This document shows, piece by piece, positions 2,719 through 11,581 of a stretch of 64,000 nucleotides of DNA. The stretch spans positions 419,501-483,500 of the forward strand of contig NZ_CP118747.1 in NCBI RefSeq assembly GCF_030996345.1, written 5' to 3'. This DNA is from Acidithiobacillus sp. AMEEHan. Lineage in GTDB: Bacteria; Pseudomonadota; Gammaproteobacteria; Acidithiobacillales; Acidithiobacillaceae. A program made the translations under genes and the position numbers. The notes beneath the pieces were generated by a model. That model had not been told where the DNA came from and did not search any database. It saw only the letters and a list, made by a program, of their open reading frames with translations. Position 1 is the first letter of the stretch. The number at the start of each line of letters is the position of its first letter.

Positions 2719-3192
2719 GTGGAAATCTTCTTTACCTACCTGGTCAGCCTTCTCCTCAGCTTTGCGACCGCTGCCACCGGCGCCAGATTTCGCCCCGATG
2801 AATGGTACCAGTCCCTACGCAAGCCATCGGTGACTCCCACCCCGTGGGTCTTTCCCGTGGTTTGGACAGTGCTTTACGTTGCCATGGCGCTAGCAGCAGC
2901 GCAGATCTGGCTTGCTCCTGCCTCCCCTCTGCGCAGCCTCGCCCTCCTGCTCTACGCCCTGCAACTTCTGGCCAACGGGGCCTGGTCGTGGATCTTCTTC
3001 GGTCTGCATCGCGTGCGCACTGCCCTTCTCGACCTCAGCGCGTTGTTCCTTCTGGTTCTGCTCGATACGCTGCTGTTTTTTTCGTTGCAGACCATCGCTG
3101 GCATCCTCTTGCTTCCCTACCTGCTCTGGCTCGCCATCGCCTGGTATCTCAATGCCGGTGTTTGGTGGCTGAACCGCGCGCGCCTGGCATGA
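2719..3192 (+). CDS. tspO: TspO/MBR family tryptophan-rich sensory protein
   Basis: The protein has 157 residues and five hydrophobic segments, as expected for TspO. Family signatures are FRPDEWYQSLRKPSVTPTPW near residue 30, VVWTVLYVAMALA, and NGAWSWIFFGLHR in the fourth segment. TspO proteins bind tetrapyrroles and, in Rhodobacter, affect oxygen- and light-dependent gene expression. The start is GTG, nine bases after the photolyase stop, with GAGG upstream, so it belongs to the same operon. Its presence supports reading the operon as a response to light or photosensitiser stress. It could also act in porphyrin handling unrelated to light. Confidence 0.9.
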   Translation: MEIFFTYLVSLLLSFATAATGARFRPDEWYQSLRKPSVTPTPWVFPVVWTVLYVAMALAAAQIWLAPASPLRSLALLLYALQLLANGAWSWIFFGLHRVRTALLDLSALFLLVLLDTLLFFSLQTIAGILLLPYLLWLAIAWYLNAGVWWLNRARLA

Positions 3193-3967: not shown

Positions 3968-4699
3968 TCATACACTGCAAAGCGGTCGCACGGCGCCAAA
4001 ACCCGCATCGACGGCCAAAACCTGACCGGTGATCTGTTCGGCGCCGAGCAAATACAGTAGGGCGCTGGCAACTTCTTGGGGAGAGATGATCTCGCCGAGT
4101 GGATATTGCTGCTTGGCCATTTCCCTCGCCCGCTCGTTGCGCAACAGATGCGCTGCCGCCGGGCTATCCATGAGCCCCGAGCGCACCCCATTGACGTGGA
4201 TCTGATCGCGCGCATGGGTGGCAGCAGCGGCCATGATCAGTGCTTCCAGTCCGCCTTTGGCCGCCGCCACTGCCTCGTGGAAGGACACGCCGATGTCGGC
4301 TACCACCGACGAGACGAACACCGCAGCGCCTCCACCGCCCCCTCGGCGCCGCGCTTTGACGAAGGCACGCAGCATAAAAAAAGCAGAGTCGAGATTGGCG
4401 GCCATACAGGCGCGGTACTGCTCCTCCGAGGTCTGTGCCAAACCCGCAAGCAGGAGCATACCGCTCAGATGCGCCAGAGCATCGGGAAGCACGCCGGCCT
4501 CGCCGAGGCGGGCGAATACCGCCTCGGCGCCGGCCATAGTGGAAACGTCCTCTTGCAACCAAAGATCTTCAGCGGGCGAGTCCGCGGGCGGCTCGCGGCG
4601 AGAAACGGCAATGACGCGCCAGCCTGCGGCACGCGCTGCGGGCATGAAAATTTGCGCCAGAGCCCCAGAAGCACCGGTGACTACAAGATTCCCTCTCAT
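3968..4699 (-). CDS. Short-chain dehydrogenase/reductase lacking the catalytic tyrosine
   Basis: The 243-residue protein has a Rossmann start NLVVTGASGALAQ, the AHLSG motif near residue 77, the active-site helix Asn (N102) and a serine strand VFVSSVV. In the YxxxK position it reads VAAAK (V144, K148), so the usual catalytic tyrosine is absent. Similar HEA[IV]AAAK variants exist in other proteobacterial SDRs as far as I recall. ATG 4699 is preceded by GGAGGAAG and overlaps, as ATGA, the end of a duplicated fragment of the AMP-ligase gene. This shows the SDR was once translationally coupled to the ligase, as the fourth gene of the PYP operon. Its substrate is unknown. Confidence 0.8.
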   Translation of the reverse strand: MRGNLVVTGASGALAQIFMPAARAAGWRVIAVSRREPPADSPAEDLWLQEDVSTMAGAEAVFARLGEAGVLPDALAHLSGMLLLAGLAQTSEEQYRACMAANLDSAFFMLRAFVKARRRGGGGGAAVFVSSVVADIGVSFHEAVAAAKGGLEALIMAAAATHARDQIHVNGVRSGLMDSPAAAHLLRNERAREMAKQQYPLGEIISPQEVASALLYLLGAEQITGQVLAVDAGFGAVRPLCSV

Positions 4700-4776
4700 C
4701 TTCTTCCTCCTATGCGACATGCCTGCGACAAGATTCCCGGCCGATCGTGGTAAAGCGCGAGGCGCTTGGGCTTGGG
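4696..4776 (-). repeat. Direct repeat copy 1: duplicated 3' end of the AMP-ligase gene
   Basis: About 80 bp here match 5697-5777 with roughly 10-15 differences. In the ligase frame this copy would encode KRLALYHDRPGILSQACRIGGRR and a stop that overlaps the SDR start by ATGA. The true ligase end (copy 2) encodes RRLALYHDWPGILSQAYRIGGGK. The two copies flank the hicAB segment, so the repeat records the insertion or recombination that separated SDR from ligase. Confidence 0.85.
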
Positions 4777-5073
4777 CTTGAGCTAGCCAGCAGCGCGCTA
4801 CCCGCAATTCCACTCTGGCACTTGCCTCCAAAGCTCCGACCCCCAACAAAAGCAATCTACCTCCACGAGACCGCCCAGGCGATAAGGCCTGTCGCGGTCT
4901 GCAACGGCGCGGTCCTCGGGTGATCTGTATACAATCCGCTGGACCAATCAGTCGCGATGACTGCAGACGCTTCTTGCTAGTCCAACAATCAACTCGCCCA
5001 AGCTAACCGGTGGGTTGAGAAATACCTTTCCAATGCCGGTTGAAAATAACAACAGAAGTGATATGTTCCGGCC
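4777..5073. other. Non-coding segment upstream of hicA
   Basis: About 300 bp without a convincing gene on either strand. It contains an AACCGG (5005-5010) / CCGGTT (5036-5041) inverted pair. It also holds a candidate promoter just before hicA: TTGAAA at 5040-5045 and TATGTT at 5062-5067, with a 16-bp spacer. The predicted transcript would start almost at the hicA ATG. HicB-type antitoxins usually repress their own promoter, so the inverted pair is a possible operator. No other feature was recognised. Confidence 0.4.
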
Positions 5074-5253
5074 ATGAACTCGAACGAATTCAAGCGATGG
5101 CTCGCCAAGCGAGGGGCGACGTTCCAACCAGGAAAGGGGGCGCACCTGAAGGTGTATCTGAACGGGCGTCAGTCGGTGCTCCCCATGCATGCCGGTGAGC
5201 TAAAGACAGGTCTCGTCGAGGCAATCAAGAAACAACTTGGGTTGAAGGAGTGA
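5074..5253 (+). CDS. hicA: HicA-type toxin (mRNA interferase)
   Basis: The 59-residue protein begins MNSNEFKRWLAKRGATF and continues GKGAHLKVYLNGRQSVLPMH, containing the conserved G-x-H-x-K segment whose histidine is catalytic in HicA double-stranded-RNA-binding-fold toxins. It ends EAIKKQLGLKE, typical of the family. The gene is followed directly by hicB. Its base composition is less GC-rich than its neighbours, consistent with transfer. Confidence 0.88.
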   Translation: MNSNEFKRWLAKRGATFQPGKGAHLKVYLNGRQSVLPMHAGELKTGLVEAIKKQLGLKE

Positions 5254-5258
5254 CACAA

Positions 5259-5684
5259 ATGAGCGATTTCGACTTTCCCGTAGTGCTGCATCCACAGCCA
5301 GAAGGCGGTTTCGTGGTATTTTTCCCGGACATCCCTGAAGCCATCACCCAGGGTGAGGATGAAGATGAGGCGCTGTTGGTGGCAGCAGACGCGCTTGAGA
5401 CCGCCCTCTCTATGTATGTAGACGAACGGAAACCACTTCCCGTTCCAAGTTCGCCCATGAAGGGTCAGAAAACCGTTAGCCCGTCTGCCTTGGAATGTGC
5501 CAAGCTCGGTCTATACCGAGCCATGTTGGAACAGGGGATTCGAAAAGCTGAACTTGCCCGTAGGTTAGGCTGGCATTTGCCTCAAGTGGACCGCTTGTTT
5601 GACCTAAACCATGCATCTCGTCTTGATCAAATCGAAGCAGCCGCACGTGCACTTGGGCGGCATATCGAGGTTCGTGTAGCTTGA
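5259..5684 (+). CDS. hicB: HicB-type antitoxin
   Basis: The 141-residue protein has an N-terminal partial RNase-H-like HicB fold (FPVVLHPQPEGGFVVFFPDIPEAITQGE) and a C-terminal helix-turn-helix (ELARRLGWHLPQVDRLFDL) that should bind the hicAB promoter. ATG 5259 is preferred because GGAG lies 8 nt upstream; GTG 5250 would overlap hicA by 4 nt. The pair is inserted between a photoactive-yellow-protein operon ligase and its former downstream partner gene and is flanked by ~80-bp direct repeats. Confidence 0.9.
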   Translation: MSDFDFPVVLHPQPEGGFVVFFPDIPEAITQGEDEDEALLVAADALETALSMYVDERKPLPVPSSPMKGQKTVSPSALECAKLGLYRAMLEQGIRKAELARRLGWHLPQVDRLFDLNHASRLDQIEAAARALGRHIEVRVA

Positions 5685-5696
5685 TGATTTTTCTAT

Positions 5697-5777
5697 TCAT
5701 TTCCCTCCTCCTATGCGATATGCCTGCGACAAGATTCCCGGCCAGTCGTGGTAGAGCGCCAGGCGCCTGGGTTTGCC
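5697..5777 (-). repeat. Direct repeat copy 2: authentic 3' end of the AMP-ligase gene
   Basis: This copy is the in-frame end of the ligase gene. It is the partner of the repeat at 4696-4776; the two enclose about 920 bp carrying hicAB. Divergence of roughly one base in eight suggests that the duplication is not recent, or that one copy was acquired together with the cassette from a related strain. Confidence 0.85.
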
Positions 5778-7046
5778 GGCGGCACTCTGCCAACTGCTCC
5801 AGCTGTCCGGGGGCAAAACGTAGAGGGGATAGGGTTCTTGCCAGCGGCGACGTAGCTGCGCCGGGTCGGTATCGGCCACCGCCGCCAGTACGGCAAGGCG
5901 ACGTTCCCCCGGGGCACCGACGACAATCTGCTGCAGGCTCGGATATTGGGCACGCAAACGCAGCTCTTCGCCCTCGGGCTGAATACCCCGGCCATCGGCC
6001 AATTTGAACGCGCTATCGCGCCGCCCGAGCCAGCGGTATCCGCCCTCGGGGAGAGGAGAAATGCGATCGCCGCTGTCGACGTAACCCTCGGCATCGACGA
6101 TAGATTGCCAAGCATGGCCATCCCAGCGCCCCAAGGCTTGGCCGGGCGAACGATAGCGCAGGGTCTCGGCAACCTGACATTCCACTTCGGGCAGAAAGGA
6201 ACCGATGCAGCCCGTAGAAAATTCCCCCCTTGCTCCGAGGCTGATACCGGGCCCGGCCTCGGTCTGGCCATAGCCAACCTGCAGCGCGCTACCGCTTAGG
6301 CGCCGGGCAAGGGCGTCATCCATTGCGGCCCCACCCACGTTGCCTCCGCGCAGGGAATAGATCTGGTCATCGTCCAAGAGCGCGGCCACCCGCGGCACCG
6401 TGAGAAGATGAGTAAACGTCTCGTGCCGCAGCTCGAGGATGGGCGCCACGCGCAACTCTGCACCGGCGATCAGCGCCGGCAAGAGTTCGAGCACACCTGC
6501 AAAGACATGGGCCCAGGGAAGGGTGTTGCGCAGCAGACTCTGGCGATCGAGTTCCATCTGCGGCGCATGTTGTCGCCACTGCCAGAGCAAAGCGGCATAG
6601 CTGAGTCCGTAGGCAGAACCCTGACCGATGCTGGCAGAGCTCCAGTAGATATTGGCGAGTTCTGCGGGATCGATGATCGTATCATCGACGGGAAACCAGT
6701 GTTCGCGCAGCGTTCCGTCCCGCCAGTCGACGAAGAGCGCGGGTCGTAGGGACTGCAGCCTGCGCGTGCGCTCCGCGGGAGACGACTCGGGCAGAGGACA
6801 AAAGACCCAATCCCCCTGCCAAGCCGCCAGCCAGTGGGCGATGTAGGCCGGACTGTTGGGTAGGGCGACGGCGATGCGCGCACGCGGCGGCAAGCTCCGG
6901 TGCCAGCGCCGTCGCAGCTGGGTTGCCCAAGCCAAGAGCGCCTGCCCCGGCCAAGCCCGGCTGATTCCCGCGGGACGCCAATCGAGACAGAAACCGCCTT
7001 CGAGACCATCGCGCAGGGCCTGCAGCAGGGCATCGCGAGCATTCAC
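5697..7046 (-). CDS. AMP-forming acyl/aryl-CoA ligase, candidate p-coumaroyl-CoA ligase for PYP
   Basis: The protein has 449 residues of the adenylate-forming (ANL) superfamily. The phosphate loop is degenerate (IYWSSASIGQGSAYGLS). Later motifs are good: YGQTEAGPG, YVDSGDRI, GRRDSAFKLADGRGIQPEGEE and SAAGKPRR with the catalytic lysine at about K425. It begins at 7046, overlapping the small gene before it by 4 nt (ATGA), and that gene overlaps pyp in the same way. In PYP-containing bacteria a dedicated ligase activates p-coumarate for attachment to the protein. Context therefore points to that role, but the substrate cannot be read from sequence. It could also be a distant fatty-acyl or aryl ligase. 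Confidence 0.8.
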   Translation of the reverse strand: MNARDALLQALRDGLEGGFCLDWRPAGISRAWPGQALLAWATQLRRRWHRSLPPRARIAVALPNSPAYIAHWLAAWQGDWVFCPLPESSPAERTRRLQSLRPALFVDWRDGTLREHWFPVDDTIIDPAELANIYWSSASIGQGSAYGLSYAALLWQWRQHAPQMELDRQSLLRNTLPWAHVFAGVLELLPALIAGAELRVAPILELRHETFTHLLTVPRVAALLDDDQIYSLRGGNVGGAAMDDALARRLSGSALQVGYGQTEAGPGISLGARGEFSTGCIGSFLPEVECQVAETLRYRSPGQALGRWDGHAWQSIVDAEGYVDSGDRISPLPEGGYRWLGRRDSAFKLADGRGIQPEGEELRLRAQYPSLQQIVVGAPGERRLAVLAAVADTDPAQLRRRWQEPYPLYVLPPDSWSSWQSAAGKPRRLALYHDWPGILSQAYRIGGGK

Positions 7047-7366
7047 GGCGCCAATTCATCCATCTGCGCCAGCAAGCTGCGCTGGCACTGCTGTGCCCGC
7101 TGTTGCAAGGCCGGCGGGATAAGGCTTTCGAGCAAGGCGATGCGCGCATCCACCTCCTGCAACTGCCGCGCCTGCTGCGCGCTGAGAAACTGCTCTCCAT
7201 CGCCCTGATGCGCGTTATTGAGTAGCTGCCACAGACAGAGCAAGCAGAGATAGAGCAGCAGATCCTGCTCCTCGCGCAGCTGCGGGGTTTGAAAGCGCTG
7301 AGCGGCGAGGGCATCGCAGGTCGCCAGCAACCAGTCGCTACTGAGCCAATCGGGGGCGCTACTCAT
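7043..7366 (-). CDS. Uncharacterised 107-residue helical protein of the PYP operon
   Basis: I do not recognise a family. The sequence looks all-helical, with a leucine-rich middle (DLLLYLCLLCLWQLLNNAHQG) and a C-terminal heptad-like helix (ALQQRAQQCQRSLLAQMDELAP). There is no signal peptide. It overlaps pyp upstream and the ligase downstream by 4 nt each, so the three proteins are probably made in fixed proportion. Given the context, it may be a partner or effector of the photosensor; that is inference only. Confidence 0.75.
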   Translation of the reverse strand: MSSAPDWLSSDWLLATCDALAAQRFQTPQLREEQDLLLYLCLLCLWQLLNNAHQGDGEQFLSAQQARQLQEVDARIALLESLIPPALQQRAQQCQRSLLAQMDELAP

Positions 7367-7761
7367 CCCAGATCCTCGAAAAGAGGCACCACGCGATCGA
7401 GAAAAATGAAGACCAAGGGAGACTGTTCGCTGTCGTGGAGCATGTGAATATGCGCCGAAACCGGGCGGATGCGGTAGGTGAAGGTGTAGAAAAAGTGTTC
7501 ATCGAGATGACCTTCAGCACGGGCGCGCAGGTAACGGCCGCGAAAGAGACGGCTGGCGGTGCAGGGTGCCACTTCGGTGAAGAAATCATGCCCGAGGACC
7601 TCCTCTCGCGGCAGACCACTCAGTCGCTCTTCGGCACTGTTGAAGAGTACGACCTTGGCGTCGTCATTGAGAGCGATCACGCCAAAGCTCCAGAGCTCGA
7701 CTTGCTGGCGGTCGATGCGGGCCAGTTGGTCCCGCCATTGGATCGGGAAAAATTCTTTCAC
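7363..7761 (-). CDS. pyp: Photoactive yellow protein (PYP) homologue, PAS-fold blue-light sensor
   Basis: The 132-residue protein aligns without gaps, from about residue 13 on, to the Halorhodospira halophila PYP as I recall it. Shared points include FFTEVAPCT (chromophore cysteine, C67 = Cys69), NSAE (E44 = Glu46), YTFTY (F94/Y96 = Phe96/Tyr98) and HIHM. Differences at pocket positions are Y42 to F40, T50 to S48, R52 to L50 and M100 to I98. PYP binds p-coumaric acid as a thioester and undergoes a photocycle in blue light. I chose GTG 7761 because GGGAGGG lies just upstream and the resulting N-terminus matches PYP length; ATG 7812 would add 17 basic residues. The operon continues with a small gene and a CoA ligase. 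Confidence 0.85.
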   Translation of the reverse strand: MKEFFPIQWRDQLARIDRQQVELWSFGVIALNDDAKVVLFNSAEERLSGLPREEVLGHDFFTEVAPCTASRLFRGRYLRARAEGHLDEHFFYTFTYRIRPVSAHIHMLHDSEQSPLVFIFLDRVVPLFEDLG

Positions 7762-7787: not shown

Positions 7788-7869
7788 GCTTTGTACTATA
7801 CGCGCCAATCATGGCAATATGATCCTAGTGCATGCGGAGCCCTCTTTCAATACCGTCCTATACAAAACG
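7788..7869. promoter_or_regulatory. Divergent pyp / merR control region with paired TTTGTA elements
   Basis: The region between the two divergent genes holds TTTGTACTATAC at 7790-7801 on the plus strand and TTTGTATAGGAC on the minus strand (7866-7855), facing each other. Related TTGTCTAG elements occur before the HdrA-like gene (8820) and before the PEBP gene (11599). CarH/LitR-type MerR proteins bind TACAA-containing direct or inverted repeats at their own and target promoters, so these are candidate operators. A TATAGT on the minus strand at 7800-7795 could serve as a -10 for pyp. Confidence 0.4.
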
Positions 7870-7885
7870 AGAACAGAACACGTCA

Positions 7886-8812
7886 ATGCAAGCGGAAGAG
7901 CATCAATATCCGATCAGCGTCGTCGAGCAGGAGACGGGAATCTCCAAGGAACTCCTGCGTATGTGGGAGCGCCGTTACGATTTCCCGGTCCCCGCTCGGG
8001 ATTCCAGCGGCAACCGCTTGTATAGCCGCGAGCAAATCGAACGGCTACAAAACATCAACAAGCTGCTGGCGGCAGGCTATCGGCCCGGCTTCGTCGTCGG
8101 CGCCAACGAAGCAAAGCTGCAGCGGCTTCTAGAGGAAATTCCCAGTGCCAGCAGTGCTCCAATCGCAACGACTGCTGAAAGCGAAGTCGATGCACTGTGG
8201 GGGCACCTGACGCGGCTGGACTTTCGCCACTCGGCACAACTACTGCGCCAGCACCTCGCCAATCTGGGAGTACAGACCTTTATCCTGCACATCGCCGCCC
8301 CCCTATATCAGCAGCTTGCCCAGGCCGAACTTGGCGAAGCCGTGCCCGATTTTGTGCATGCCATTGCCCAGGAGCAGCTCTTGGAGTCGATGAGTTGGGC
8401 GCGCGCCATGCTGCCGCCGGCGGGCGCCAACAACCTGCAGATCCTGCTCGCCAATCTGCCCGGAGAGGGACGCGAGCTCGAGTTGCAGATGACTCGCACC
8501 CTTCTTCTCGGCAGTGGAGCGGATGTCCTCTTCCTGGGCTATGAGCCAGCATCTGCGGAAATTCTGGCCTGCCTGCAACATTGCCCGGTGCCGGTCTTGC
8601 AGATTGCCGTTTCTGCCGCTTCCGTCAACGCCAAGAACCAACAACTTTTGCAGCAACTGCGCCGCGGCATGCCTGCGAGCACCAGCCTCTGGCTGAGCGG
8701 TAGCGGCGCCGAGGAGCTCGACCCTGATGCCGACGGCATGCCGCGTTTTCGCCGCTTACGCGACTTGTTGGAGGCGGTGCAGAGCTGGCAAAAACCACTG
8801 CGAGAATCCTGA
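7886..8812 (+). CDS. LitR/CarH-type MerR regulator without B12-ligand residues
   Basis: The protein has 308 residues. A MerR helix-turn-helix occupies residues 9-75 (ISVVEQETGISKELLRMWERRYDFPVPAR ... LYSREQIERL), then comes a region of the B12-binding four-helix bundle and Rossmann type (about 100-300). In CarH the bundle has a tryptophan and an EH pair and the Rossmann part a GExH motif whose histidine binds cobalt. Here these read EQ (163-164) and GEGR (193-196), so the cobalt ligand and its helper are missing. It probably senses something else or acts through a partner. ATG 7886 follows 16 codons without good start features at 7832. The adjacent divergent gene is the PYP photosensor. Confidence 0.85.
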   Translation: MQAEEHQYPISVVEQETGISKELLRMWERRYDFPVPARDSSGNRLYSREQIERLQNINKLLAAGYRPGFVVGANEAKLQRLLEEIPSASSAPIATTAESEVDALWGHLTRLDFRHSAQLLRQHLANLGVQTFILHIAAPLYQQLAQAELGEAVPDFVHAIAQEQLLESMSWARAMLPPAGANNLQILLANLPGEGRELELQMTRTLLLGSGADVLFLGYEPASAEILACLQHCPVPVLQIAVSAASVNAKNQQLLQQLRRGMPASTSLWLSGSGAEELDPDADGMPRFRRLRDLLEAVQSWQKPLRES

Positions 8813-8819
8813 CTGATAT

Positions 8820-8865
8820 TTGTCTAGTACATAAGCTTGACAATGTCCTCTGCGGCTACTATCTT
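8820..8865 (+). promoter_or_regulatory. Candidate promoter and operator of the HdrA-like gene
   Basis: TTGACA at 8837-8842 and TATCTT at 8860-8865 are separated by 17 bp, a good sigma-70-type promoter placing the transcript start about 25 nt before the ATG. TTGTCTAGTAC at 8820-8830 lies directly upstream, and TGTC/GACA form an imperfect inverted pair over the -35 region. A similar TTGTCTAGACT precedes the PEBP gene. This may be the site of the neighbouring MerR regulator. Confidence 0.45.
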
Positions 8866-8896: not shown

Positions 8897-9952
8897 ATGG
8901 CAGCGCAGGATACAGTTCTCGTAGTGGGTGCCGGCCCAGCCGGTCTTTCGGCAGCCGCAACCATCGCCGGCATGGGCAAGAAAGCCGTCATTGTGGAAAA
9001 GGAAGATGTATTGGGCGGCGCCCCAATCATCTCTGGTTACTCCAAGCTCGTCCCCTCGGGCGAGTGGGCCAAGGATGCCATCGGCCGCATGGTCAGCCGC
9101 GTGGAAGGCGATGGCAACGTCAGTATTCACAAATCCACCAAGGTGACCAAGCTCGACGGTGAAGCCGGAAACTTCACGGCCACCCTGAGCAATGGCAGCA
9201 GCGTGGAGGCCGGCAGCATTGTCCTCGCAACCGGCTTTACCCATTTCGACTCCATCAACAAGCCGGAGTGGGGCTTTGGTACCTATGAGGATGTGCTCAC
9301 CACGACCCAGATGGAGCAGATGGTCGGCACCGGCCAGATTCGCTGCCCCTCGGACGGGCGGGTACCGGAGCGAGTAGCCATTCTTCTCTGCGTCGGCTCC
9401 CGCGATCGGCAGATTGGCCGCGAATGGTGCTCCAAGATCTGCTGCACCGTCTCTGCCAATCTCGCCATGGAGATCAAAGAGTTGTCACCATCTACGGATG
9501 TCTTCATCTACTACATGGACATTCGGACCTTCGGGCTCTACGAAGACAAGTTCTACTGGAAGAGCCAGGAAGAGTACAAAACCAAGTTCGTCAAGGCGCG
9601 TATTGCCGAGGTGACCAAGTCTCCCGATGGCCGCCTCCTGGTGAAAGGCGAAGACACCTTGGTGAAGCGCCCCATCGTCATCCCCATGGACATGGTCGTG
9701 CATGCCATTGGCATGGATCCCAACGCCCTCAATCCCGAGATTGCCAAGACCTTTGGTATTGGTCTGGAGAAGCATGGCTTTATCGACAAGGCCGAGCAGT
9801 ACACCAACAGTCAGGGCACGACACGCAAGGGCATCTACGTCTGTGGCGCGGCGACGGGTCCAGAAACCATCGACGACTCCATCGCCCAAGGGCAGTCGGC
9901 GGGCTCGCGAGCGGTGATGGATCTGTATCAACTCGCAAAAATGAGCGCGTAG
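8897..9952 (+). CDS. HdrA-like FAD/iron-sulfur oxidoreductase subunit (orphan)
   Basis: The 351-residue protein starts with an FAD-binding VLVVGAGPAGLSAAATIAG and has a second dinucleotide-type region ending GIYVCGAATGPETIDDSIAQG. Cysteines C165, C178, C182 and C183 (LLCVGSRD ... EWCSKICC) match the CxnCxxxCC cluster motif of heterodisulfide-reductase A subunits. Such short HdrA proteins belong to the sHdr complex that oxidises sulfane sulfur in Acidithiobacillus. Here no hdrB, hdrC, tusA or lbpA gene is adjacent, so this is a separate paralogue. AGAGGAG precedes the ATG. A small membrane protein gene follows nine bases downstream, suggesting that the flavoprotein works with a membrane partner. 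Confidence 0.85.
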   Translation: MAAQDTVLVVGAGPAGLSAAATIAGMGKKAVIVEKEDVLGGAPIISGYSKLVPSGEWAKDAIGRMVSRVEGDGNVSIHKSTKVTKLDGEAGNFTATLSNGSSVEAGSIVLATGFTHFDSINKPEWGFGTYEDVLTTTQMEQMVGTGQIRCPSDGRVPERVAILLCVGSRDRQIGREWCSKICCTVSANLAMEIKELSPSTDVFIYYMDIRTFGLYEDKFYWKSQEEYKTKFVKARIAEVTKSPDGRLLVKGEDTLVKRPIVIPMDMVVHAIGMDPNALNPEIAKTFGIGLEKHGFIDKAEQYTNSQGTTRKGIYVCGAATGPETIDDSIAQGQSAGSRAVMDLYQLAKMSA

Positions 9953-10268: not shown

Positions 10269-10823
10269 ATGTCGATCAACAGTACTGCCGCGTATCGCGG
10301 CACCCTGCCGCGCTTCACTCTCGACGGCTTCTTTAGCGGCCCTCTCGTTGCCAGCGGCGTCTTCTGCGATCGCAAGCGTCGCGTGCGCAATCGCTTTTTC
10401 ATGAACATGCTGGGTAACTGGGAGGGTAAACGCGGCACCCTGGAGGAGCGCTTCACCTTTCTCGACGATCAAGGCAATAGCAGTCATGCCGAGCGCGTCT
10501 GGAAGCTGGAGCAGATTGACGAGAGAAATTTTCGCGGCACCGCCGCGGGCTCTGCCGGAGACATCGTCGGTATTGCCGAGGGCAGTGCCGAGGGCTATGC
10601 GATGCACTGGCAGTATACCGTGCGCCAACCCGTGGGCGACAAAGCTTACAATCTACGCACCGATGACCGCATGTACCTGCTCGGACCGCAGCATGTAATC
10701 AATCACAGTCGCATGCACTTCTTCGGTTTTTTCGTTGGCGAAGCAATCATCGAGATTCATCGCCTCGGCGCCGATGAGCTCGACGCCGTCCGTGGCCATC
10801 CGCGCCCGGAGACCTACCGATGA
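10269..10823 (+). CDS. DUF3833 family protein, cytoplasmic form
   Basis: The protein has 184 residues and the same motifs as the lipoprotein at 587-1177 (FTLDGFFSGPLVASGVF, GNWEGKRGTLEERF, HWQYTVRQPVGDKAYN). It has no signal peptide or lipobox, so it should stay in the cytoplasm. ATG 10269 has GAGGAG nine bases upstream; a TTG at 10230 is less likely. It overlaps the following SDR by 4 nt. The DUF3833-SDR pair is typical of light-induced clusters in Proteobacteria. Two paralogues in one island suggest a duplicated branch with different location. Confidence 0.85.
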   Translation: MSINSTAAYRGTLPRFTLDGFFSGPLVASGVFCDRKRRVRNRFFMNMLGNWEGKRGTLEERFTFLDDQGNSSHAERVWKLEQIDERNFRGTAAGSAGDIVGIAEGSAEGYAMHWQYTVRQPVGDKAYNLRTDDRMYLLGPQHVINHSRMHFFGFFVGEAIIEIHRLGADELDAVRGHPRPETYR

Positions 10824-11581
10824 CAGACACCTACTGGCAAAATCGCCGCTGCTGGTTGATTGGCGCCAGCACGGGTATTGGCGCCGCCACCGCCCAGGCC
10901 CTGCACGCCGCCGGGGCACGGCTTGCTCTCAGCGCCCGCAGACAAGACCAGCTCGAGCAGGTCTTGCCGGCTGCCGCGCAACCGCTGATTCTGCCCGCCG
11001 ATGTGCAGGACTTGACGAGCTTGCAGGCGGCGCACACCGAAATCCTGCGCCATTGGCAAGGTATCGATGTGTTGGTCTATCTCGCGGGTGCCTACACTCC
11101 GGCACGCGCCTGGGAACTCGACCTGCATCGAGCCGAAGAGATCCTCGACATCAACTACCGCGGTGCCCTACGCAGTCTGGCTGCAGCCCTGCCCGGTTGG
11201 CAGGAGCGCGGGGCGGGGCAGATCGTTCTCGTCTCCAGCATCGCCGCCGTGCGCGGCCTGCCGCAATCCCTCTACTACGGCCCAAGCAAGGCCGCCCTCA
11301 CCCACCTGGCCGAGGTACTGCGCCTCGATCTCGAACCCCGCGGCTTTCACGTGCAGGTGGTGCATCCCGGCTTTGTTGCCACCCCTCTCACCGCCCAGAA
11401 TACCTTCTCCATGCCGCACCTGATGCGCCCCGAGGATGCTGCCCAGGCCCTCCTGCGCGGGATGCGCAGCAAGCGTTTCGAGATCCAGTTTCCCCGCGCC
11501 TTCACCCGCCGCTTTTCCCTCCTGCGTTGCCTCCCCTACCGCTGGTACTTTCCGCTCATCCGCCGCGCGACGGGGCTCTGA
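10820..11581 (+). CDS. Short-chain dehydrogenase/reductase (classical)
   Basis: The 253-residue protein has the cofactor motif IGASTGIGAATA, the LAGAY motif, a catalytic serine strand (IVLVSSIAA) and an intact YGPSK active site, unlike the SDR at 3968. The C-terminal FPRAFTRRFSLLRCLPYRWYFPLIRRATG is hydrophobic and basic and may touch the membrane. It is coupled to DUF3833 by ATGA. In similar clusters this SDR accompanies photolyase and MerR genes; the substrate is unknown and may be lipid-derived. Confidence 0.88.
   Translation: MTDTYWQNRRCWLIGASTGIGAATAQALHAAGARLALSARRQDQLEQVLPAAAQPLILPADVQDLTSLQAAHTEILRHWQGIDVLVYLAGAYTPARAWELDLHRAEEILDINYRGALRSLAAALPGWQERGAGQIVLVSSIAAVRGLPQSLYYGPSKAALTHLAEVLRLDLEPRGFHVQVVHPGFVATPLTAQNTFSMPHLMRPEDAAQALLRGMRSKRFEIQFPRAFTRRFSLLRCLPYRWYFPLIRRATGL

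Follow-up and report, generated by a model that had tools for sequence, protein, structure and literature searches.

On balance, the 64,000-nucleotide stretch of the Acidithiobacillus sp. AMEEHan genome (2.63 Mb) analysed here, referred to below as the window, appears to carry a LitR-type light regulon with an exchanged input in which, judging by analogy, PYP would have replaced B12. The regulator encoded at 7886-8812 has lost its B12-site residues and is strictly paired with PYP within the family Acidithiobacillaceae, and the two genes lie in a cluster containing a DNA photolyase and other light-cluster genes, with a conserved box at their promoters.

A CarH-like regulator without B12 ligands

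The gene at 7886-8812 (forward strand) is confirmed as a real open reading frame for a MerR protein of the CarH/LitR fold, comprising 308 amino acids and having a degenerate B12 site. Its ATG start at 7886 agrees with those of three relatives beginning MQAEEH, MQSEES or MHEDDS; a second in-frame ATG is located upstream at 7832. The N-terminus is a MerR DNA-binding domain (Pfam PF13411, MerR_1, 5.9e-14), while no Pfam match to a B12-binding domain was obtained for the window regulator; in one family member (L034) PF02310 was found below the cut-off (6.8e-7). The NCBIfam CarH model matched at 1.8e-21, yet its 76.7 bits fell short of the cut-off, which is 400, and phmmer aligned the protein to Thermus thermophilus CarH at 2.3e-14. 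An AlphaFold2 model (pLDDT 82.8, pTM 0.68) had CarH entries as its top PDB fold matches (5c8f, E 5e-15), with a TM score, normalised to the target, of 0.82 for truncated CarH 5c8a; by the model and these matches, the C-terminal helical bundle and the Rossmann-like domain of the CarH fold are both present. The profile, phmmer and structural results bear out the CarH architecture proposed in the first-pass annotation.

We take W131, H142 and H177, in numbering and in role, to be the B12-site residues of CarH. An alignment to CarH and LitR, which the first-pass annotation had suggested as a check, was made with 26 rows: 13 Acidithiobacillaceae copies and 13 comparison rows (nine gammaproteobacterial LitR, three betaproteobacterial and T. 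thermophilus CarH), the CarH columns being located via the motifs EAWHRGE, AEEHLAS and GERHEIG. Every one of the 13 comparison rows has W/H/H in the three columns and no family row does, so that the CarH/class I LitR ligand set (the cobalt-binding His of GExH and the upper-side W...EH) is present in 0/13 copies of the family. The W131 column holds Glu or Arg, the H142 column Ala, Gln, Arg or Gly, and the H177 column Arg in every family row, GERH of CarH having become GEGR in the window regulator; the proposed loss of the cobalt-binding His (GExH to GEGR) is upheld. Loss of the upper EH motif likewise stands, but its exact description as EH to EQ depends on the register, since MAFFT gives H-A where the earlier reading had E-Q; because the EH helix can be shifted by about one turn, both descriptions (EH to EQ, EH to HA) refer to one loss. 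The alignment holds no invariant His among the 13 family rows, and displaced ligands were rejected on this ground. Cys233 and Arg196 (numbering of the window regulator) are invariant in 13/13 family regulators, Arg196 occupying the former cobalt-ligand position. Outside the family, all nine close relatives of full length, which come from eight genomes of a 370-genome sample of the class, kept the B12 ligands. From its residues, the regulator has almost certainly lost B12 binding, and at this level it would, like class II LitR, have no functional B12 site.

In two trees the 13 family rows formed one clade (support 100/100) inside a 25-row group that also contained 12 rows with B12 ligands (support 100/98 and 100/99); CarH fell outside this group in both trees, and the branching order within the group was not settled by them. 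A separate clade comprised four ligand-bearing rows together with two rows without the His ligands (L112 and L117, the latter keeping the Trp), which look like class II LitR, the tree containing no named class II sequence. This clade is distinct from that of the family; joining the family rows with L112 and L117 was therefore rejected, and the loss of the B12 site in the family is separate from that in these two rows. The stretches of L112 and L117 contain a photolyase-like gene and no LOV motif.

Co-occurrence of the regulator and PYP

Among 29 Acidithiobacillaceae genomes (regulator counted at E <= 1e-8), PYP and the regulator were found in the identical 13, which span three of the four genera of the family, and in all 13 the two genes are adjacent and divergent. 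When the set was limited to the 23 genomes with a completeness of at least 90% and a contamination of at most 5%, each protein was present in 12. Both DUF3833 genes showed the identical pattern of 13/29. At the same threshold the regulator was absent from all 16 PYP-less genomes (five of them under 90% complete or more than 5% contaminated). The co-occurrence proposed as a check was thus found in all 13, and the occurrence of this regulator type without PYP, named beforehand as one of two observations that would speak against the idea (if frequent), was not encountered in this set. Identity of the regulator to its relatives ranges from 49 to 82%. Co-occurrence of neighbours can also arise through joint inheritance of one block.

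Outside the family, TIGR02373 identified PYP in seven of the 370 class genomes, two of the seven being Acidithiobacillaceae, and the stretches read around the other five contained no regulator of the CarH-like type. A scan of named species genomes returned ten loci with a family-type PYP, nine of them titled Acidithiobacillus or Igneacidithiobacillus. The contig of the tenth (L052) bears the title Phycisphaera mikurensis MAG (isolate SulCav) and is probably an Acidithiobacillus contig that was mis-binned. Plasmid records numbered 41 for LitR/CarH-like proteins (25 listed, from Thermus and others) and 11 for other PYP-like proteins; none among the matches listed held both.

The PYP protein and its operon

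The PYP gene is located at 7363-7761 on the reverse strand, divergent from the regulator as the first-pass annotation had described. Its start was placed at GTG 7761 for two reasons: a promoter box falls inside the longer ORF that begins at 7812, and several relatives share a start of the form (M/V)K-x-F. The protein scored 85.4 bits with TIGR02373, under the cut-off of 143; its identity as a PAS-fold PYP is supported by this sub-cut-off match, by PYP entries as the best PDB matches, and by equivalents of Cys69 and Glu46 that are invariant in 13/13 family PYPs. The model used in a survey of 789 PYP homologues is stated to be more sensitive than TIGR02373 (PMC9664959). That survey mentions transcriptional regulators near clade A PYPs, and its main text contains none of the terms MerR, LitR, CarH or B12; nor did it turn up among papers naming both PYP and Acidithiobacillus.

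Four changes are fixed in all 13 family PYPs: Tyr42 to Phe, Thr50 to Ser, Arg52 to Leu and Met100 to Ile. Y42F is found in about 9% of PYP homologues (PMC9664959). Residues R62, R87, R113 and D138 (numbering of the window PYP) are among those invariant in the 13 family proteins and different in five PYPs of other families, two of which were compared as the last 130 residues of longer frames. All 13 family PYPs end in a tail L-(F/Y)-E-D-L, missing from the same five. The family-only residues and the C-terminal tail are candidate partner contacts.

The gene that follows (7043-7366, reverse strand) overlaps the pyp stop codon and encodes a protein of 107 amino acids, predicted to form four helices and having a conserved core W-x-x-x-N-N-A-x-Q-x-D-G. 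It was found in two of the 370 class genomes, both Acidithiobacillaceae with PYP, and was seen only next to PYP genes of this type. Searches gave no Pfam or NCBIfam match and no convincing PDB fold match (best E 0.78), and tblastn gave no copy in one short locus (L035), the ends of the protein being poorly conserved. This protein may be an adaptor or an aid in making the chromophore.

Next in the operon is an AMP-binding ligase (Pfam) with a GTG start (5697-7046, reverse strand). It is not near the p-coumaroyl-CoA ligase family (TIGR02372 gave 21 bits, its cut-off being 335), and phmmer found no match to it among the ORFs around the five other-family PYPs; in those five class-sample genomes a candidate AMP-binding ligase, recognised by motif, adjoins PYP. 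An SDR oxidoreductase (3968-4855, reverse strand; Pfam), whose true start probably lies within the ORF, follows the ligase gene in six of the 12 relatives' loci; in the window a short insertion separates the two. A 79-nt direct repeat, 87% identical (4696-4774 and 5697-5775), surrounds about 0.9 kb with a HicB-like antitoxin ORF (5250-5684). As the ligase and SDR genes adjoin in two relatives (L028 and L029), the arrangement in the window looks like the result of a small insertion by which the junction was duplicated. A ParE-type toxin ORF (PF05016; 3620-3892) lies between the TspO and SDR genes, and no partner was identified for it. An aromatic ammonia lyase was found in none of the 29 family genomes by a search that was positive in five of 14 control genomes. 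TAL genes adjoin only at least 10% of Cys69 PYPs (PMC9664959).

Promoter boxes and the light cluster

Comparison of the loci revealed three boxes in the window, which are candidate operators. Box 1, TTTGTATAGGACG (7854-7866, reverse strand), is located directly upstream of the -35 element of a putative pyp promoter recognised by pattern match only (TTGAAA-N17-TAGGAT, 7822-7850, reverse strand); box 2, TTTGTACTATACG (7790-7802, forward strand), lies between the putative -10 element and the GTG; and box 3, TTTGTCTAGTACA (8819-8831, forward strand), is positioned ahead of a putative flavoprotein promoter (TTGACA-N17-TATCTT). The layout at pyp resembles that of a PmlR2 target described in PMC9758184, with a box near the -35 and one between the start site and the start codon, while the box sequence differs. 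The published PplR1/PmlR2 operator, TRTACA-N12-TGTAYA, was tried, and neither the window nor the loci of the 12 relatives contained a match.

A loose form of the box (TTTGT-MYW...), derived from comparing the 13 loci, was present at 33 of 39 promoters of the regulator, pyp and flavoprotein genes (12/13, 12/13 and 9/13 starts, respectively) and missing at six; the 13 loci contain 75 matches in total, those beyond the 33 promoters lying elsewhere. The strict 13-base pattern was built on the three window sites, so its three matches against 0.04 expected from shuffles are not independent. More independent support comes from conservation in the relatives and from a further copy, the fourth, which lies beyond the window in the divergent promoter between the DPRP and amine oxidase genes. 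Genome-wide the strict box is no commoner than a reversed control (six versus nine matches in the own genome), four of the six matches falling within C1:414905-428331. It has no match at the cluster in four of the 13 regulator-bearing genomes (G001, G009, G016 and G017), and 56 matches were counted in the 13 genomes with the regulator versus 30 in the 16 without it, ten of these 30 in a single genome. Genome G007 contains eight identical copies of TTTGTCCTGGACG, perhaps a piece of an insertion sequence.

The pair is embedded in a light cluster. Upstream of the window, on the strand of the MFS gene and divergent from a DPRP photolyase-related gene, genes for an amine oxidase, a DUF1365 protein and a cyclopropane synthase precede the MFS transporter, whose 3' part (51-590) opens a forward-strand series inside the window: a DUF3833 protein (587-1177), a DNA photolyase/cryptochrome (1174-2709; NCBIfam) and a TspO/MBR protein (2719-3192). 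Beyond the regulator, also on the forward strand, are an HdrA-like FAD oxidoreductase (8897-9952; Pfam), with box 3 upstream, a second DUF3833 protein (10269-10823) and an SDR oxidoreductase of the LitR cluster type (10820-11581; Pfam). Four of the nine B12-type LitR relatives (L087, L091, L092 and L095) are near amine oxidase, DUF1365, CFA, MFS, DUF3833 and SDR genes; a fifth (L093) has amine oxidase, DUF1365 and CFA, and the stretches read for the other four have none of them. Azoarcus has consecutive genes, divergent from LitR, for SDR, DUF3833, MFS, chalcone isomerase family, CFA, DUF1365 and FAD oxidoreductase proteins. Because several B12-type relatives and Azoarcus share this cluster, the block is an ordinary LitR block in which the sensor alone differs, and the regulator very probably controls it as a photoprotection cluster. 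The HdrA-like flavoprotein is 88-97% identical to its relatives, apart from a copy split into two pieces with 82 and 94%, and its boxed promoter suggests light control of a sulfur-metabolism-type enzyme.

Proposed mechanism and alternative explanations

In the proposed mechanism, the starting point is a regulator that retains its MerR DNA-binding domain and CarH-like fold and has lost its adenosylcobalamin-holding residues. In darkness it would act as a repressor of the pyp operon and the photoprotection cluster as well as of its own gene via the boxes (TTTGT-MYWRK-AC), which would act as operators beside the promoters. Blue light would switch PYP, presumed to be photoactive, and the activated protein would bind the regulator directly and so lift repression. 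The contact would most simply involve the DNA-binding half of the regulator, as for LOV with PmlR2: PmSB-LOV binds the N-terminal domain of PmlR2 in a light-dependent manner, DNA binding is inhibited and derepression follows (PMC9758184). That PYP serves as the light input and acts on the regulator is, in our judgement, somewhat the better bet. The first-pass annotation had put forward the same idea, and it is partly sustained: neither conserved displaced ligands nor, in the family, a regulator without PYP was found, and PmlR2 with its short LOV protein offers an experimentally shown analogue, whereas the adjacency of the two genes also fits a role of pyp as mere target gene, and no ammonia lyase was found in the 29 genomes.

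Other sensors were sought in the same genomes. BLUF was found in none of the 29, and the strict LOV codon pattern (NCRFLQ) was missing from the own genome; it was present in two other regulator-bearing genomes (G017 and G018), with a variant NCSFLQ in a third (G027), in each case on another contig or at a great distance from the cluster. That the cluster itself holds a LOV gene was rejected: across the window and 12 further loci of the family the sole hit to the motif, GCSFLQ, lies just past a stop codon (L039) and is a chance hit. The sole B12-binding match in the own genome is an HpnJ-like protein; across the family such matches are frames of 479-599 amino acids, of which the own-genome one was identified, plus the regulator in six Acidithiobacillus-type copies.

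These results bear on the possibility that PYP is a mere output, the regulator driving pyp as one more light-cluster gene while taking its own signal from another chromophore in the B12 pocket, from redox, from a distant LOV or other sensor, or from none, and PYP acting elsewhere. Such an arrangement would agree with the boxes at the pyp promoter itself and with the LOV pattern elsewhere in G017 and G018. Class III LitR, its C-terminus unlike any functional domain, is moreover said to undergo a spectral change on illumination (PMC9758184), and since Cys233 and Arg196 are invariant in 13/13 copies, the old B12 pocket may have a new job. We nevertheless hold it to be unlikely, given that within the family neither PYP nor the regulator is found without the other, that each ligand-less copy of the family clade adjoins PYP, and that BLUF is absent from the 29 genomes and the LOV pattern from the own genome.

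The regulator's direct partner might instead be the 107-aa four-helix protein, either receiving the signal from PYP or bridging both. In the window the gene overlaps the stop codon of pyp, the core of the protein is conserved, and its two occurrences in the class sample are both in the family with PYP; but no fold match hints at a function (best E 0.78), no tblastn copy was found in L035 (with the caveat of its poorly conserved ends), and a role in chromophore making is equally possible, which leaves this reading quite improbable. Very improbable, in our view, is a PYP that descends from a p-coumarate photoreceptor and now senses another ligand or, through its Cys, a redox state. The absence of an aromatic ammonia lyase from all 29 genomes and the four fixed pocket changes speak for such a shift, whereas Cys69 and Glu46 have remained invariant, a ligase gene is part of the operon, DNA photolyase and light-cluster genes surround it, Y42F is known from about 9% of homologues, and TAL adjoins only at least 10% of Cys69 PYPs (PMC9664959).

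PYP as light input to the regulator, the reading we prefer, has wider implications. Slightly short of an even chance, we estimate, is the fuller picture of a stand-alone PYP as a direct light-switched anti-repressor, that is, a fourth MerR light input after B12, BLUF and LOV, with B12 lost independently of class II, a DNA-binding output for a single-domain PYP, a chromophore obtained without ammonia lyase and a dedicated 107-aa helper. Three MerR light systems are named in PMC9758184 (B12, BluR/BluF and LOV), and it has yet to be learned, according to PMC9664959, how single-domain PYPs hand on their signal to partners downstream. In the present case a PYP is tied to a single candidate partner in each of 13 genomes, a candidate operator and regulon are at hand, and the question of PYP signalling thereby becomes testable with two small proteins and a DNA probe. 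If the reading is true, the LitR light system underwent at least two sensor swaps, from B12 to LOV and from B12 to PYP. The locus also suggests light sensing in acidophilic sulfur oxidisers, on which one open-literature search of titles and abstract beginnings found nothing; at the same depth, in open literature with subscription papers largely outside it, no published link of PYP to a LitR/CarH/MerR regulator or to Acidithiobacillus was found among the papers listed.

Comparison with known light-responsive systems

The closest parallel is PmlR2/PmSB-LOV of Pseudomonas mendocina, in which a B12-less LitR-type MerR protein is encoded near a small stand-alone blue-light sensor, and in which the light-inducible genes include photolyase, SDR, flavin oxidoreductase and fatty-acid-modifying genes (PMC9758184). 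There a class II LitR is combined with a short LOV protein, whereas here the sensor is PYP and a short LOV gene is absent beside the regulator. CarH and class I LitR resemble the window regulator in sequence, fold and neighbouring gene cluster, but the equivalents of W131, H142 and H177 are all gone from it. BluR/BluF of Escherichia coli likewise consists of a MerR-like repressor and a separate blue-light receptor that acts as its direct antagonist (PMC3509220); its sensor is a BLUF-EAL protein, unlike the present case, BLUF being absent from the 29 genomes of the family. Classical PYP operons, composed of PYP, p-coumaroyl-CoA ligase and tyrosine ammonia lyase, share with this one an AMP-binding ligase in the operon as well as Cys69 and Glu46, and differ from it in that here the ligase is a distant one, the ammonia lyase is absent, and a 107-aa protein and a C-terminal tail of PYP are added.
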